Assembly: GCF_003258315.1 (NCBI RefSeq)
Contig: NZ_CP030032.1
Coordinates: 2,643,804 to 2,707,803 of the forward strand
From: Bradymonas sediminis
GTDB taxonomy: Bacteria; Myxococcota_A; Bradymonadia; Bradymonadales; Bradymonadaceae
Length of the DNA stretch: 64,000 nucleotides
Reading direction: 5' to 3'
The first letter of the stretch is position 1. Each line of letters begins with the position of its first letter. The translations under genes and the position numbers were made by a program. Of the stretch, positions 8,298 to 13,275 are shown piece by piece. The notes beneath the pieces were generated by a model that was not told where the DNA came from, did not search any database, and saw only the letters and a list, made by a program, of their open reading frames with translations.

Positions 8298-8861
8298 TTA
8301 TTCGAAGTCCACGACGCCGGAGTCCTGGGCCTTCTTCTCGCCCTTTCGCCGCAGCACAAATTTGGTGCTGGCCAGGGGCTTTTGCCCGTACCCAAGGCTA
8401 AAGACCATCAGGTATTTGCGGTCGGGCGAAAACTTCGACGCCGAGAGTTCGGCGTGCCCCGCAAGAATCTTGTCGCTTCGGTCACTCGGATAAAACGCGA
8501 AGGTTTCGATATATTTTTGCGAGCCTTTCACGGTGATATCGTAATAGGTCACCGCCGCCTTGAGCGTGGAAACCGGCTTGGGCAAAAACGCCATATACTC
8601 AAACTCCCAGCTCTCGTCGCCCTGGGCCGTCAAGGTCTTGGTATTGACCTTCTTCATGTGGCGCACAAATTCGTTGTCACTCTTAAAGCGACTCGGAAAG
8701 CGCTCGGTGCTGATGATGATGTCTCCCTTGAATTTCTTCTCGGGCTTGACCGCCCAGGCCGTTTGAACGCTGGCGAATACAAACAACAGAAAAACCAGGC
8801 TTGAGACAACACGCACGCCGACACGCTTCGAATTCGCTCCAGGGGCAACTGAATCAATCAT
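8298..8861 (-). CDS. Secreted protein of unknown function
   Basis: I do not recognise this family. The 187-residue product has an N-terminal signal peptide ending near TAWA|V and a mature part of about 150 residues rich in beta-prone stretches and aromatic residues. The only cysteine-free, basic C-terminal section includes VLRRKGEKK. The ATG at 8861 is chosen over an upstream in-frame start (8891) because GGAG lies seven bases before it and the signal peptide then begins correctly. It stands alone between a terminator (8214-8247) and the divergent DUF3800 gene, with a plausible promoter at 8990-9018. Confidence 0.7.
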   Translation of the reverse strand: MIDSVAPGANSKRVGVRVVSSLVFLLFVFASVQTAWAVKPEKKFKGDIIISTERFPSRFKSDNEFVRHMKKVNTKTLTAQGDESWEFEYMAFLPKPVSTLKAAVTYYDITVKGSQKYIETFAFYPSDRSDKILAGHAELSASKFSPDRKYLMVFSLGYGQKPLASTKFVLRRKGEKKAQDSGVVDFE

Positions 8862-8989
8862 ATAATCTCCGAGGACGCGTTGCGGCCACACTCCACGCGC
8901 CAGGGAACCCTACAAAGCTCCAGGCAGGAATCAATGAGCCAAGCAACGACGAGATGAATGGAAGACGCGCTTTGTACGCGATAATGACA

Positions 8990-9018
8990 ACTTTAGCCTC
9001 CACGGGCATTTCTGCCAA
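8990..9018 (-). promoter_or_regulatory. Possible sigma-70-like promoter for the secreted protein at 8298-8861
   Basis: Reading the minus strand: TTGGCA (-35), 17-bp spacer, TAAAGT (-10). It would give a leader of about 120 nt before the ATG at 8861. Nothing else supports it. Confidence 0.33.
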
Positions 9019-9053
9019 CCCGTTTTTCATACAGACACGGGCAAAAGGAAATT

Positions 9054-9857
9054 ATGACGCAGAGAATAACCGTTTTTTGTGACGAAACCGGCGCTCATGA
9101 TTGCCGGTATTTTGGCTGGGGTTCAATCTGGTGCCCGAGCGAATCGGTGGATGAGCTGAACCAGACGCTGGATTATTTCTGCAGCAAATCCAACCAGAAA
9201 AACGAATTAAAATGGAGCCATACCGGCGACGGTGGGGCGCGAAACGAGGCCATTCGCTGGTTCTTTGAGACCCCCTGGCTCTGCTTCCAGTCGATGTGGG
9301 TGCGCCGCTCGACCCTGGGGCAGCTGACGCGCAAAAACTCCACCTTCGCCTATCGCAAGCTATTATACGCGATGCTCGGCGCACGCATGCACCAATTCGA
9401 CCAACTGCCCGGAGGACCGCGCGAATTCGAGGTGCGCGCCGACCAGGTTGATGGGCGCAATCCTGCCCGCACCCGCAAAGAGTTCCACCTGCTCCAGGGG
9501 GTGTGCGCGGCTCAGTCGAAGAGCGAGCGCCAACTATTGATTGACTTTCAGCGCGTCGACAGCCGACAGCACCGCGGCATCCAGCTCGCGGACCTGCTGG
9601 TCGGCGCGATTCGCAGCTCCTGGGAGGGCATGCCCACCGGCACCAAGCGCGCGATCTGCACCACAATCTCGAACCACCTGGGCTGGCAAGACCTGCGCGC
9701 GACCACCGATAATAACCTGAAATTTCATATCTGGATGCCCCGGGATTTCGGCATCAAGTCCCGCGACCCACAACTGCGCGCCCTGGCGCTCACGGACCGC
9801 CACGGCGACCCGAGGCGCGTCTTCGGCGCGCCAAGCGACGAGACTATCGGTCTTTAA
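9054..9857 (+). CDS. DUF3800 family protein
   Basis: The 267-residue protein matches DUF3800: an N-terminal beta strand with CDETG (Asp10, Glu11), a central FxxxLxAM region, FEVRADQVDGR and the hallmark QLADLLVGAI near residue 180. The family is predicted to have an RNase H-like fold with acidic catalytic residues, and it is frequent in phages, plasmids and defence neighbourhoods; its biochemical role is not settled. The ATG follows AAAGGAAATT, a good ribosome-binding site. It stands alone here with no transposase, toxin or restriction partner. It is convergent with the YfcE-like gene. Confidence 0.82.
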   Translation: MTQRITVFCDETGAHDCRYFGWGSIWCPSESVDELNQTLDYFCSKSNQKNELKWSHTGDGGARNEAIRWFFETPWLCFQSMWVRRSTLGQLTRKNSTFAYRKLLYAMLGARMHQFDQLPGGPREFEVRADQVDGRNPARTRKEFHLLQGVCAAQSKSERQLLIDFQRVDSRQHRGIQLADLLVGAIRSSWEGMPTGTKRAICTTISNHLGWQDLRATTDNNLKFHIWMPRDFGIKSRDPQLRALALTDRHGDPRRVFGAPSDETIGL

Positions 9858-9909
9858 TGATGGGAGAGTTTGCGCAGGTGGGCCGCGGCGAGATGACGCG
9901 CCGCGCATT

Positions 9910-10431
9910 TCAGGGCTTCTTGAAACCCGCGACGCGTGAGCCCAGATGAATGCGCTCCATCTCGAGCTCACCGCTGTCTTCGTCAACATATAAAAAGAGC
10001 GCGAAGCACAGGTCATGAAAACCCACTCGCCCGCAGGCGCCCGGGTTCACCCATAAGGTCTCTTTGACTCGGCCGACCACGGGGATATGGCTGTGGCCGC
10101 AGATAAAGATATCGGGTTTATGCTCGGCGATAAGCCCGCGCGCGGCCATATTCGGGCTGCGCGGCGAGCCGGCGATATGGCGCAGGACGAATTTGCGCGG
10201 CCCCACCAAAAATACCAGCGTCTCAGGAAGAAAGCGCAGGTCGCCGCCGTCAATATTACCCTTGACGATCTTCAGCTCGGCGAGCGCCTCGAGCTGGTCG
10301 ATAACCTCCTGGTTGCCGATGTCACCGGCATGAATCAGCAGGTCTACCTGCTTGTCCTGGAAGAGCTCGACCAGCTCGGGGTCGAGCCAGCCGTGGGTAT
10401 CTGACAAAATGCCTATCTTAATCTTAGCCAT
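9910..10431 (-). CDS. YfcE-family metallophosphodiesterase
   Basis: The 173-residue protein carries the calcineurin-like metal-binding motifs in order: SDTHG (D-x-H), HAGDIG (GD), KGNIDGG (GNxD), CGHSH (GHxH) and a final VNPGACG. This is the YfcE/MJ0936 group of small Mn/Zn phosphodiesterases, cytosolic and active on model phosphodiesters; the natural substrate is often unknown. The ATG follows TTAGGTCGCG. It lies 28 bp downstream of the 800-residue DNA-binding-domain protein on the same strand, so the two are probably co-transcribed, though no functional link is known. Confidence 0.88.
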   Translation of the reverse strand: MAKIKIGILSDTHGWLDPELVELFQDKQVDLLIHAGDIGNQEVIDQLEALAELKIVKGNIDGGDLRFLPETLVFLVGPRKFVLRHIAGSPRSPNMAARGLIAEHKPDIFICGHSHIPVVGRVKETLWVNPGACGRVGFHDLCFALFLYVDEDSGELEMERIHLGSRVAGFKKP

Positions 10432-10459
10432 CGCGACCTAATCGTACGAAGAAGCGAGA

Positions 10460-12862
10460 TTATCGAATCGAGCGAATCTTCTCGAGCTGATTGCGATGAC
10501 CATGCTCTTCATAATAGCTGGCAAGAAGGCGCAGCACGCGCTGCGGGGTGCTGGCGAGCTCGGAGCTGCGCGAAAGCCGCACGATCTCGCGGTCGCGCTG
10601 GGCCATCGCCTCCAAGATCTCCTCGTTGCTCCCTTCGGTCACATAGAGGGACTCGGGCAGGCGAAGCAGACGCCCTTCCTCGGCGCTGCGCGTCAGCGAA
10701 CCGAAGACCGCGGAGTCCGACCCGCCGTAGCCGTATTGGGTGCGCAACTCGCTGCGGACCTCGCGCGGATAAGCGGCGCCGTAGTCCCCGACGATCTGGC
10801 CGATCGCGGTGCGCAGCACGTGCTGGCTTTCGCTGCCGGTGTCGCGAGCGACCAACTCACCCGGCCCGCAGACGACCTTCTCATGCTCGCGCAGCAGGCC
10901 CCAGAGCAAACCGGAGCCATATTCGCGAATCGCCAACCCGCGCGCTTCGGCCATCTCGCTGAGCTCGCTGAGCAAATCCGCGCAGGACATCGGCGTGCCG
11001 TCGGCCGGCAGCGTGTCATGAACCGCGTCGAGCAGGCGAACCCGCCGGTTCTCACTGAGCCCGACGAAGGAAAGATGCACGAAGCGATTATTGCCCATAT
11101 TCAGCGAGAACGGCGCCGACAAAAGCGTCGTATAGATGGACATTCGATGGTAGTCGATTCCCTCGGGCAGCAGGTCGATGACGTCTTCGACCGTCAGCGG
11201 CGCGCTCGCTTCGACCAGCACGGTCTCCACGCGGTCGGCCAGCGTTTTGCCGCTCTCCTCGAAGGTCGCCGCGTGGGCCACCAGGTAGGTATTCTTAAAG
11301 GTCAGCACGTCCGAATGCCGGCTCAACGCGTCCTTGAGCAGATACGGCGTCAAGCCCTCTTCGGTCTTGCCAAGCTCGTCCAATTCGCCCAGCAGATATT
11401 TGGTGCTGATCTGGCCGGACTCGCCGTGCAGGCGCTTGACGCACCACTGCACGACCGAATCCAGGGCGTCCAGCGAAATCGGCAACGCGCTGGCGTGGAC
11501 ATAGGTGCCGCGCTCGATGGTATAGATATCCTCATGGCGATGCAGCAGGCCGTTTAGGGCGCGCTCGCTGATCTCATTGATCCCGTGCTCGTGCTGCTCG
11601 AAGGACTCCAGGCGGGTCAGGATTTCCTGCGCGCTCATGGGACTGGCGACGTCCTCCAGGACGTTGGCCACGTGGTCACTGCGGCGAGCCCAGGGGTTCT
11701 TGATCGAGCGGGACTTGCCGATATCGACCTCCCAGGCGACCTGGAAGAGATGGGTAAGCCCGGCGCGGTCCATGCGCAATCCGGCGCGATGCGAGAAGTT
11801 CTTGACCTGCTCAAAGGGCAGGACCGCCCGGCCGGTCTCGACAATCGCGTCGCGCAAGCGGCGCAGCTTGATGTCGATCTCGCTCTGGTGCAGCGAGGTA
11901 ATAAAGACCCCCTGCCAGATCCGGAACTCCACGAGCCCTGCCAGATGCAGCGCGAAGAGAATGCGGTGCAAGTCGTTGATCTCGGTCAACTCCGTGACGC
12001 GATCCGCGGGCAACAGGCCACCGGCCTTCTCTGCCGCCTCGACCACCGGCTCTAAGAGCACCTCGGCCTCGGGCCGAAAATGATAACTCAGGGTCTCCAC
12101 CAGGGTGTCGAAGCGGGCCTGGATGGCCTGGAAGCTGACGTCATAATCATCGCCGATATCCCCGAAGGTATCGCCCACGAAGAAGCGGCGCTCCACGATA
12201 TCGCGGTCACTCTCCTCCAGGGTGTCCAGGGCCTGCTCGATCAGGTCGTGCAGGTTCTCCGGGCGACCGCGGTCGCCGAAGAGATAGGCGTCGAGGCCGT
12301 GGTTCGCGATGGTCTCCAAAATCTCATGCACTCGCGTGAGGGTCTTGGGGCCGAAGTTGGGCAGCCGGCCCAGCTCGCCGCGCTCAAACGCGTTGACCAG
12401 GTCTCGCACCGAGGTATAGCCGACACTCTCGAACGCGCCGCGCGCGCGCGTCGGCAGGACGCGAAGAACCCGCTCCCACGGCTCATCCATACCCACGCCG
12501 CTCTTCCCCAGACGGTCGCTCAACAGCTGGGTTTCGCTCGCCTCGCTAAGCCCCTGGCTCGAGAACGCAAGTTCGTTGCGCGCGCGCACCTTCAGGTCGC
12601 CGATTACGTCGATCTTCTTGGCCCCGACGCCGCGCGCGTCGCGCAGCACCGTCTCGCTAAGCTCGAGCAGGTCTCCCACCGTTCCCACTTCAAAACGTTC
12701 CAGAACATTCTGAATCAACGTCGGCGGATTTAGTACCGAGACCGGCACATAGAATGCTCCTTCGGGCACACCTCCCGTGAATTCAGCATCGTCTGAGACC
12801 TGAAATCCGGAGTCATGTTTCGATGAAGCGCTACTGGATTCGTGCTTGCCGTTGGCTGTCAT
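10460..12862 (-). CDS. Alpha-CTD-like / sigma-region-4-like / winged-helix fusion protein
   Basis: The N-terminal third holds two helix-hairpin-helix modules resembling the RNA polymerase alpha-subunit C-terminal domain (about 40-95, with VGDLLELSE then GVGAKKIDVI; and about 128-186, with LPNFGPKTLTRV). Next is a sigma-70 region-4-like helix-turn-helix (about 205-260: LEESDRDIVERRFF). The rest (about 265-800) contains several predicted winged-helix segments near 400-455 (ending RGTYVHA), 545-600 and 684-750, reminiscent of HARE-HTH domains. There is no catalytic domain and no core-binding sigma region 2. It is probably a nucleoid or transcription-associated DNA-binding protein. Domain calls come from motif reading only; the function is unknown. 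Related architectures exist in bacteria, as far as I recall from domain surveys. Confidence 0.72.
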   Translation of the reverse strand: MTANGKHESSSASSKHDSGFQVSDDAEFTGGVPEGAFYVPVSVLNPPTLIQNVLERFEVGTVGDLLELSETVLRDARGVGAKKIDVIGDLKVRARNELAFSSQGLSEASETQLLSDRLGKSGVGMDEPWERVLRVLPTRARGAFESVGYTSVRDLVNAFERGELGRLPNFGPKTLTRVHEILETIANHGLDAYLFGDRGRPENLHDLIEQALDTLEESDRDIVERRFFVGDTFGDIGDDYDVSFQAIQARFDTLVETLSYHFRPEAEVLLEPVVEAAEKAGGLLPADRVTELTEINDLHRILFALHLAGLVEFRIWQGVFITSLHQSEIDIKLRRLRDAIVETGRAVLPFEQVKNFSHRAGLRMDRAGLTHLFQVAWEVDIGKSRSIKNPWARRSDHVANVLEDVASPMSAQEILTRLESFEQHEHGINEISERALNGLLHRHEDIYTIERGTYVHASALPISLDALDSVVQWCVKRLHGESGQISTKYLLGELDELGKTEEGLTPYLLKDALSRHSDVLTFKNTYLVAHAATFEESGKTLADRVETVLVEASAPLTVEDVIDLLPEGIDYHRMSIYTTLLSAPFSLNMGNNRFVHLSFVGLSENRRVRLLDAVHDTLPADGTPMSCADLLSELSEMAEARGLAIREYGSGLLWGLLREHEKVVCGPGELVARDTGSESQHVLRTAIGQIVGDYGAAYPREVRSELRTQYGYGGSDSAVFGSLTRSAEEGRLLRLPESLYVTEGSNEEILEAMAQRDREIVRLSRSSELASTPQRVLRLLASYYEEHGHRNQLEKIRSIR

Positions 12863-13275
12863 TGTCTAAATCACCGTCAATTAGGGAACTACCCAGGTGG
12901 GCTTATTTATATCGCCCAACTATTTTTATCATGTCGCGCAGTGTTCGCGGCCTGATACCTTCATCTACTGCAAGGTTACTGAGCCAGTTTTATCGGGGTG
13001 CTTTCACGAGCATTACCCGAAACTGTCCAAGATTTACAGCATCCAACGCGCCAGCACCAGAGCTTTTTTAGTTTTAACTGCTCCGCAACCCAGCGCAAAC
13101 ACTTTCCACTATGCAGCAGCAAAATATTCCAGCGCTAAATTTTCTTATTGAGACGCGCCCCTGACATCGTTTTCAAGCCAGCCAGCCACTTCTAATGATA
13201 GAGAATGGTCGCGCCAGCTCATCTACAAAATAAGCATTTCCTGCCTTACAAACACCCTTAGCTCTCGAATTCGCG

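Follow-up and report, generated by a model that had tools for sequence, protein, structure and literature searches.

A possible PglW-type DNA-recognition scaffold built from RNA-polymerase-like folds in Bradymonas sediminis

Introduction

What might a protein do that joins DNA-binding pieces of RNA polymerase to a row of winged helices? The question is raised by a gene of Bradymonas sediminis within the 64,000-nucleotide stretch of DNA that we analysed (hereafter the window), from a genome of 5,045,683 bases in a single contig. An earlier note, made from the sequence alone, had read the gene product as two alpha-CTD-like domains, a sigma-region-4-like helix-turn-helix (HTH) and several winged helices with no catalytic part, and had proposed a promoter- or chromatin-associated factor that mimics the holoenzyme and touches UP-element and -35-like DNA at once; it named structure prediction as a check. 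Here we describe the domains, relatives and gene neighbourhoods of this protein, which raise a testable question, namely what such modules read: DNA, marks of modification, or the interference of phages with transcription.

Results

The gene and the parts of its product map to the window as follows.

10460..12862, minus strand: whole gene, 800 residues, ATG at 12862 and stop at 10460, with a syntenic ortholog of 76% identity in genome G013
12883..12902, minus strand: 20-base block 5' of the start codon, shared with G013 and containing a short inverted repeat
12764..12862, minus strand: low-confidence tail, residues 1-33 (pLDDT below 50 for 1-32)
12557..12763, minus strand: alpha-CTD-like domain 1, residues 34-102 (Pfam, structure match, hhalign), Leu at the R265 equivalent
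12278..12490, minus strand: alpha-CTD-like domain 2, residues 125-195 (Pfam, hhalign), R265 and G296 equivalents kept
12260..12277, minus strand: linker with GRP motif, residues 196-201, GRP in most family members (alignment A1)
12077..12259, minus strand: sigma-70 region-4-like HTH, residues 202-262, recognition helix degenerate, net charge of 200-262 -11
11888..12079, minus strand: winged helix 1 (wH1), residues 262-325 (model), one long helix continuous from sigma-4
11687..11887, minus strand: winged helix 2 (wH2), residues 326-392 (model), net charge +4
11483..11686, minus strand: winged helix 3 (wH3), HARE-like, residues 393-460 (Pfam, model, hhalign)
11255..11476, minus strand: winged helix 4 (wH4), residues 463-536 (model, hhalign)
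11060..11251, minus strand: winged helix 5 (wH5), residues 538-601 (model, hhalign)
10838..11059, minus strand: winged helix 6 (wH6), residues 602-675 (model, hhalign)
10628..10837, minus strand: winged helix 7 (wH7), residues 676-745 (model, structure match)
10463..10627, minus strand: C-terminal helices, residues 746-800 (model, low to middling confidence)

The domain order given in the earlier note was correct, and structure prediction recovered the folds it had named: two alpha-CTDs, a sigma-4 domain and winged helices, the "several" of which number seven in the AlphaFold model (residues 262-745). The full-length model, built from five alignment rows, had a pLDDT of 76.7 (around 90 in the sigma-4/wH1 part), and a model of residues 33-330 alone reached 83.2. 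Two stretches of the protein matched the Pfam model RNA_pol_A_CTD (PF03118; 1.1e-8, 35.1 bits against a curated cut-off of 23.8), and residues 38-96 of the model superimposed on the alpha-CTD of S. coelicolor with Z 8.5 (1.5 Å over 57 residues, 32% identity); a VIA-align Z below 8 may reflect a common arrangement, and this value lies only just above, with the sequence in agreement. Aligned with each other by hhalign (96.5%, 7.7e-10), the domains are shown to be duplicates as far as profile comparison can tell, and against RpoA of the same genome they gave 89% and 94%. The HTH matched Sigma70_r4 (PF04545) at 7.7e-5 and 22.6 bits, slightly below the cut-off of 24.1; it is matched at family level too, and its fold is alike (Z about 10), the comparison with sigmaA region 4 carrying the beta flap tip yielding Z 10.4 (2.4 Å over 91 residues) and Z 9.9 (2.6 Å over 92). 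Among the matches listed for the N-terminal model, sigma factors were overwhelmingly represented.

At an E-value of 0.1, Sigma70_r4 was matched by 11 of the 15 family members in alignment A1 (best 6.5e-12), RNA_pol_A_CTD by eight (best 2.3e-10) and HARE-HTH (PF05066) by three (best 1.3e-6). Within A1, L018 and L013 lack sigma-4; alpha-CTD is missing there from these two and from L007 and L008, and L016 lacks alpha-CTD1. The 800-residue protein itself matched HARE-HTH at 0.013 and 16.3 bits, below the curated cut-off of 25.9, and the likeness lies in wH3 and its related repeats. Profile comparison identified wH3, wH4, wH5 and wH6 as mutually related (best pair wH3-wH5, 1.4e-13) and detected no relation of wH1 to the other winged helices.

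Structural matches came one domain at a time: no full-length relative was found by Foldseek at E 0.001 or better (both models against the PDB, the full model against a viral library), searches that leave room for other families. The protein has none of the N-terminal assembly domain of the RNA polymerase alpha subunit, and, in contrast to sigma-70 factors, no other sigma region was found in it; Pfam, followed up to E 10, gave no region 2 model, and region 4 was the sole part that NCBIfam sigma models matched. NERD and Ser/Thr kinase domains were absent from the Pfam scan, and no catalytic domain emerged from the Pfam, NCBIfam and PADLOC scans, which bears out the earlier reading; that such a combination of modules is plausibly a DNA-associated factor was also rightly seen.

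Residues R265 and G296 of alpha-CTD contact UP DNA, and residues of the sigma-4 recognition helix read the -35 element. In alpha-CTD2, the equivalents of R265 and of G296 are each present in 11 of 11 rows; in alpha-CTD1, the R265 equivalent is absent from all nine scorable rows. The recognition helix reads VSFQAIQARF in the 800-residue protein and its closest ortholog, as against LTRERIRQIE and VTRERIRQIE in the genome's own sigma factors. A motif of the (T/S)RxR[VI]RQ type is kept in 9 of the 13 sigma-4-bearing members of A1, including L016 (TTERVRQ), and has been lost from the window protein, the G013 ortholog, L007 and L008. The net charge of sigma-4 is -11 in the window protein, -9 in the G013 ortholog, -4 to +3 in other members, and 0 and +5 in two of the genome's own sigma factors. 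Nearly all domains are acidic, and among the ten that fold only wH2 has a positive net charge; family members are often acidic too, and the genome's own alpha-CTD has a net charge of -2. This weakens the proposal that UP-element and -35 DNA are read at once: the alpha-CTD2 arginine is kept, but the sigma-4 motif is lost and alpha-CTD1 has no such arginine. The linker between alpha-CTD2 and sigma-4 carries RGRP (12260-12277), which we take to be an AT-hook-like motif.

Alignments to the sigma-4/beta-flap-tip chimeras reached residue 313, that is, into wH1, and covered 80-92 residues, as against about 57-72 for most rows with sigma-4 alone. These alignments hint, in the model, that the polymerase-docking groove is filled within the protein, where wH1 may occupy the position of the flap tip.

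The G013 ortholog is syntenic and 76% identical over the whole length, with the highest values in wH5 (88%), alpha-CTD2 (86%) and wH7 (85%). Searches with the single protein matched 12 of the 26 genomes of the order, and a profile search of the phylum (E 1e-14, three candidates scored per genome) found a patchy spread over 17 of 282 genomes. No relatives were found in genome contigs by the single protein, and none in plasmids or viral contigs; a search with a closer subset, A4, gave four named loci in genome contigs, with Lujinxingia vulgaris TMQ2 (L072) the only named close record. The family is uncharacterised; besides this class, a few other representatives of the phylum have it. The literature searched, including sections of PMC12839542 and PMC10853773, yielded no description of it, and one may exist elsewhere.

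In a tree of the 15 members, the window protein and the G013 ortholog group with L007, L008 and L018 (support 92/93), and throughout this group the sigma-4 motif is lost or sigma-4 is absent. Defence-linked members are scattered over the tree, some branches of which are long. Some relatives carry extra N-terminal parts, among them TerB (1.3e-16, in the member linked to Dnd-Pbe), DUF7226 and DUF3644. Two genomes of family f2 encode proteins of about 395 residues (L064, 5004-6185; L066, 7449-8636) that the family profile matches over alpha-CTD2 and sigma-4; they are shorter than the 800-residue family and distinct from it.

A profile of ten PglW-like C-terminal halves matched A1 with a probability of 98.3 (E 1.2e-14) over 360 columns, corresponding to residues 38-441, whereas the controls gave 0.1 (reversed), at most 0.1 (20 column shuffles) and 0.3 (N-terminal half of PglW). 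The alpha-CTD pair carried most of the match (97%, E 1e-10; sigma-4 alone 61.6%, E 7.8e-5), and the winged helices of PglW found no match in this family by profile, so that the core is common to both and the winged-helix arrays may differ. In the opposite direction, the family HMM matched single PglW-like ORFs at 9e-13 (model positions 12-378) and 7.4e-13, and the PADLOC and NCBIfam PglW models touched several relatives (best 3.3e-9 and 7.5e-9). The PglW search had given fifteen loci, of which L099-L101 (kinase half only) were not used and L095 and L097 had no qualifying ORF, leaving ten profile rows; since only 3 of the 140 genomes searched scored above the curated cut-off, some of these rows are PglW-like rather than PglW.

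Judged by these sequence profiles, the two alpha-CTDs and the sigma-4 fold are shown to be homologues of a portion of PglW's DNA-binding half. The C-terminal half of PglW of BREX type 2 (NF033442, PADLOC PDLC02512) has the same order of alpha-CTD, alpha-CTD and sigma-4-like domain, but the 800-residue protein stands alone, has neither the NERD nuclease nor the kinase domain, and its winged-helix array is not detectably homologous. A BREX survey describes in PglW an alpha-CTD-like domain, three winged helices and an inactive STAND domain, and its PglW section names no sigma-4 part (PMC12839542). Several relatives also matched the C-terminal sigma-4 region of MzaA (NF041931), the sigma-like protein of the MZA anti-phage system; the match is limited to that region and lies far below the cut-off.

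Among 18 loci of relatives with examined context, six are fused to or lie near type IIG, type I, Dnd-Pbe or BREX-like genes. In L027 (G002), the family member forms a fusion with a type IIG methyltransferase (4.2e-215), and a DrmD-like helicase (4e-49) comes next; in a second fusion, in L033 (G019), the partner is the C-terminal part of a methyltransferase that has 59% identity to the one in G011, where a type IIG C-terminus lies about 7 kb from the family member (L026). Type I restriction-modification genes lie nearby in L030 (G007), a Dnd-Pbe cluster is found in L032 (G009; PbeA 2e-195, PbeC 4.8e-127, DndB 8.5e-157), and the sole BREX-like neighbourhood, L084 (G201), has a PglX-like gene (9e-148) paired with a weakly matching BrxC-like one (7.7e-8). 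In L032, the protein at 8559-11282, which combines TerB with the alpha-CTD/winged-helix module, is encoded immediately 5' of PbeA and PbeC, in the same orientation.

The other 12 loci, that of the nearest ortholog (G013) included, showed no specific defence system, five of the 12 ending short on one side. Their 98 neighbouring ORFs matched chiefly kinase models among the matches listed (25 of 35 families), which also held a protein with matches to cysteine desulfurase models (SspA/DndA) and a single match to IetA. In 16 control windows, of whose 152 ORFs the 62 longest were scanned, the matches listed (25 of 28 families) comprised kinase models, RtcR-like proteins and one WGR_XIII match, the last in a control ORF among L105-L120 (3.4e-296). 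We selected the defence proteins at the linked loci by visual inspection, so the enrichment is not a blind test; given this and a control scan covering 62 of 152 ORFs, we claim no p-value. Contigs L012 and L067, like the G018 fragment, are too short to show a gene neighbourhood.

Scanned with Pfam only, the immediate neighbours in the window are a phosphoesterase downstream, followed by a DUF3800 gene, a divergent hydrolase gene and one gene with no family; further genes look by eye like transporter genes. G013 has the same core gene order without DUF3800. The DUF3800 gene itself (window 9054-9854, 2.7e-11) has no counterpart that we saw at the syntenic locus. Neither a defence gene nor, specifically, a BREX gene was found among the Pfam-scanned neighbours in the window, and no BREX model was among the matches listed for the neighbours of the G013 ortholog. 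We rejected the downstream metallophosphoesterase as a telling functional partner: 22 of the 26 genomes of the order carry it (13 of the 13 good ones), and it adjoins this family only in the window genome (G000) and G013.

No promoter or terminator was found between 9850 and 13450. The inverted repeat of 12883-12902 varies compensatingly in its stem (CCCA/TGGG against CCCG/CGGG), and the block is a possible operator or leader hairpin. A regulon marked by it was rejected, as it occurs once per genome in the two genomes, at this gene only; a backwards control of the pattern gave 2 and 3 hits.

Discussion

The reading that we favour, with a probability of about 0.4, makes the gene product a non-enzymatic scaffold of the PglW type, standing alone, with a predicted role in recognising or sensing DNA. 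Within such a scaffold, alpha-CTD2, whose arginine is invariant, and some HARE-type winged helices would touch DNA, perhaps as sensors of modification or of DNA from invaders, and alpha-CTD1, the degenerate sigma-4 and wH1 would form a structural core or a protein-docking surface. In relatives, the module presumably serves a methyltransferase, a helicase or a kinase. Since the scanned neighbours include no defence gene and the gene keeps the same chromosomal place in two genera, the window protein may act alone, act with a partner encoded elsewhere, or have taken on a role in regulation or in the nucleoid. This would connect an uncharacterised family with the half of PglW that does the sensing; it also suggests that DNA-binding pieces derived from RNA polymerase form a module that can be reused across several defence systems based on DNA modification.

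How do other explanations compare? A promoter-associated holoenzyme mimic, reading UP-element DNA through alpha-CTD2 and -35-like DNA through sigma-4, would account for the homology of both domains, the arginine of alpha-CTD2, the reading motif of nine family members and, as its operator, the conserved upstream block. It is an unlikely explanation, however: the window protein itself has lost the motif and carries a sigma-4 of strongly negative charge, alpha-CTD1 has no arginine, and the presence of some relatives in defence contexts, together with the core common to PglW, points away from promoter regulation. The defence-linked relatives and the lost promoter-reading residues make sensing or gripping of DNA likelier than imitation of RNA polymerase at promoters. 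Somewhat less probable still is an architectural protein of the nucleoid or chromatin-like kind, whose ten DNA-binding folds would cover DNA, or bridge it, largely regardless of sequence; the tandem array of seven winged helices and the synteny between G000 and G013 fit such a protein, but the domain charges are predominantly negative, and occurrence in 12 of 26 genomes of the order is patchy, unlike that of a core nucleoid protein.

That the gene is the drifting orphan relic of a lost defence system, as its degenerate sigma-4 and the lack of a defence gene found beside it or the G013 ortholog might suggest, seems quite improbable given the intact frame and the high identity to that ortholog, above all in wH5, alpha-CTD2 and wH7; at 76%, the protein is conserved like the adjoining phosphoesterase, which is 72% identical between the two genomes. 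We give very little weight to RNA binding of the kind by which SelB winged helices bind SECIS RNA. Structures of RNA-bound SelB and Egalitarian winged helices were among the Foldseek rows, but these rows were weak and the winged helix is a common fold, and both the alpha-CTD and sigma-4 domains and the fusions to methyltransferases speak for DNA.

T4 enzymes ADP-ribosylate R265 of alpha-CTD, and T4 AsiA binds sigma-4. There is thus a slim chance, slightly better than that of RNA binding, that the alpha-CTD/alpha-CTD/sigma-4 cassette is an integrated decoy of RNA-polymerase surfaces attacked by phages, so that tampering by a phage would trigger the attached effector; its carriers would be PglW kinases, type IIG methyltransferases, Dnd-Pbe and BREX-like systems. 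The invariant arginine of alpha-CTD2 (11 of 11) and the decay of the -35-reading residues in one branch fit a decoy as well as they fit DNA binding.

Besides the scaffold protein, the same genome encodes two HARE-HTH proteins: in one (L121, 1501-3216), a long basic linker connects two HARE stretches, and the other (L122, 1051-2523) reads by eye as HARE-HARE-Mrr nuclease, differing in this from the 800-residue protein, to which no nuclease is attached.
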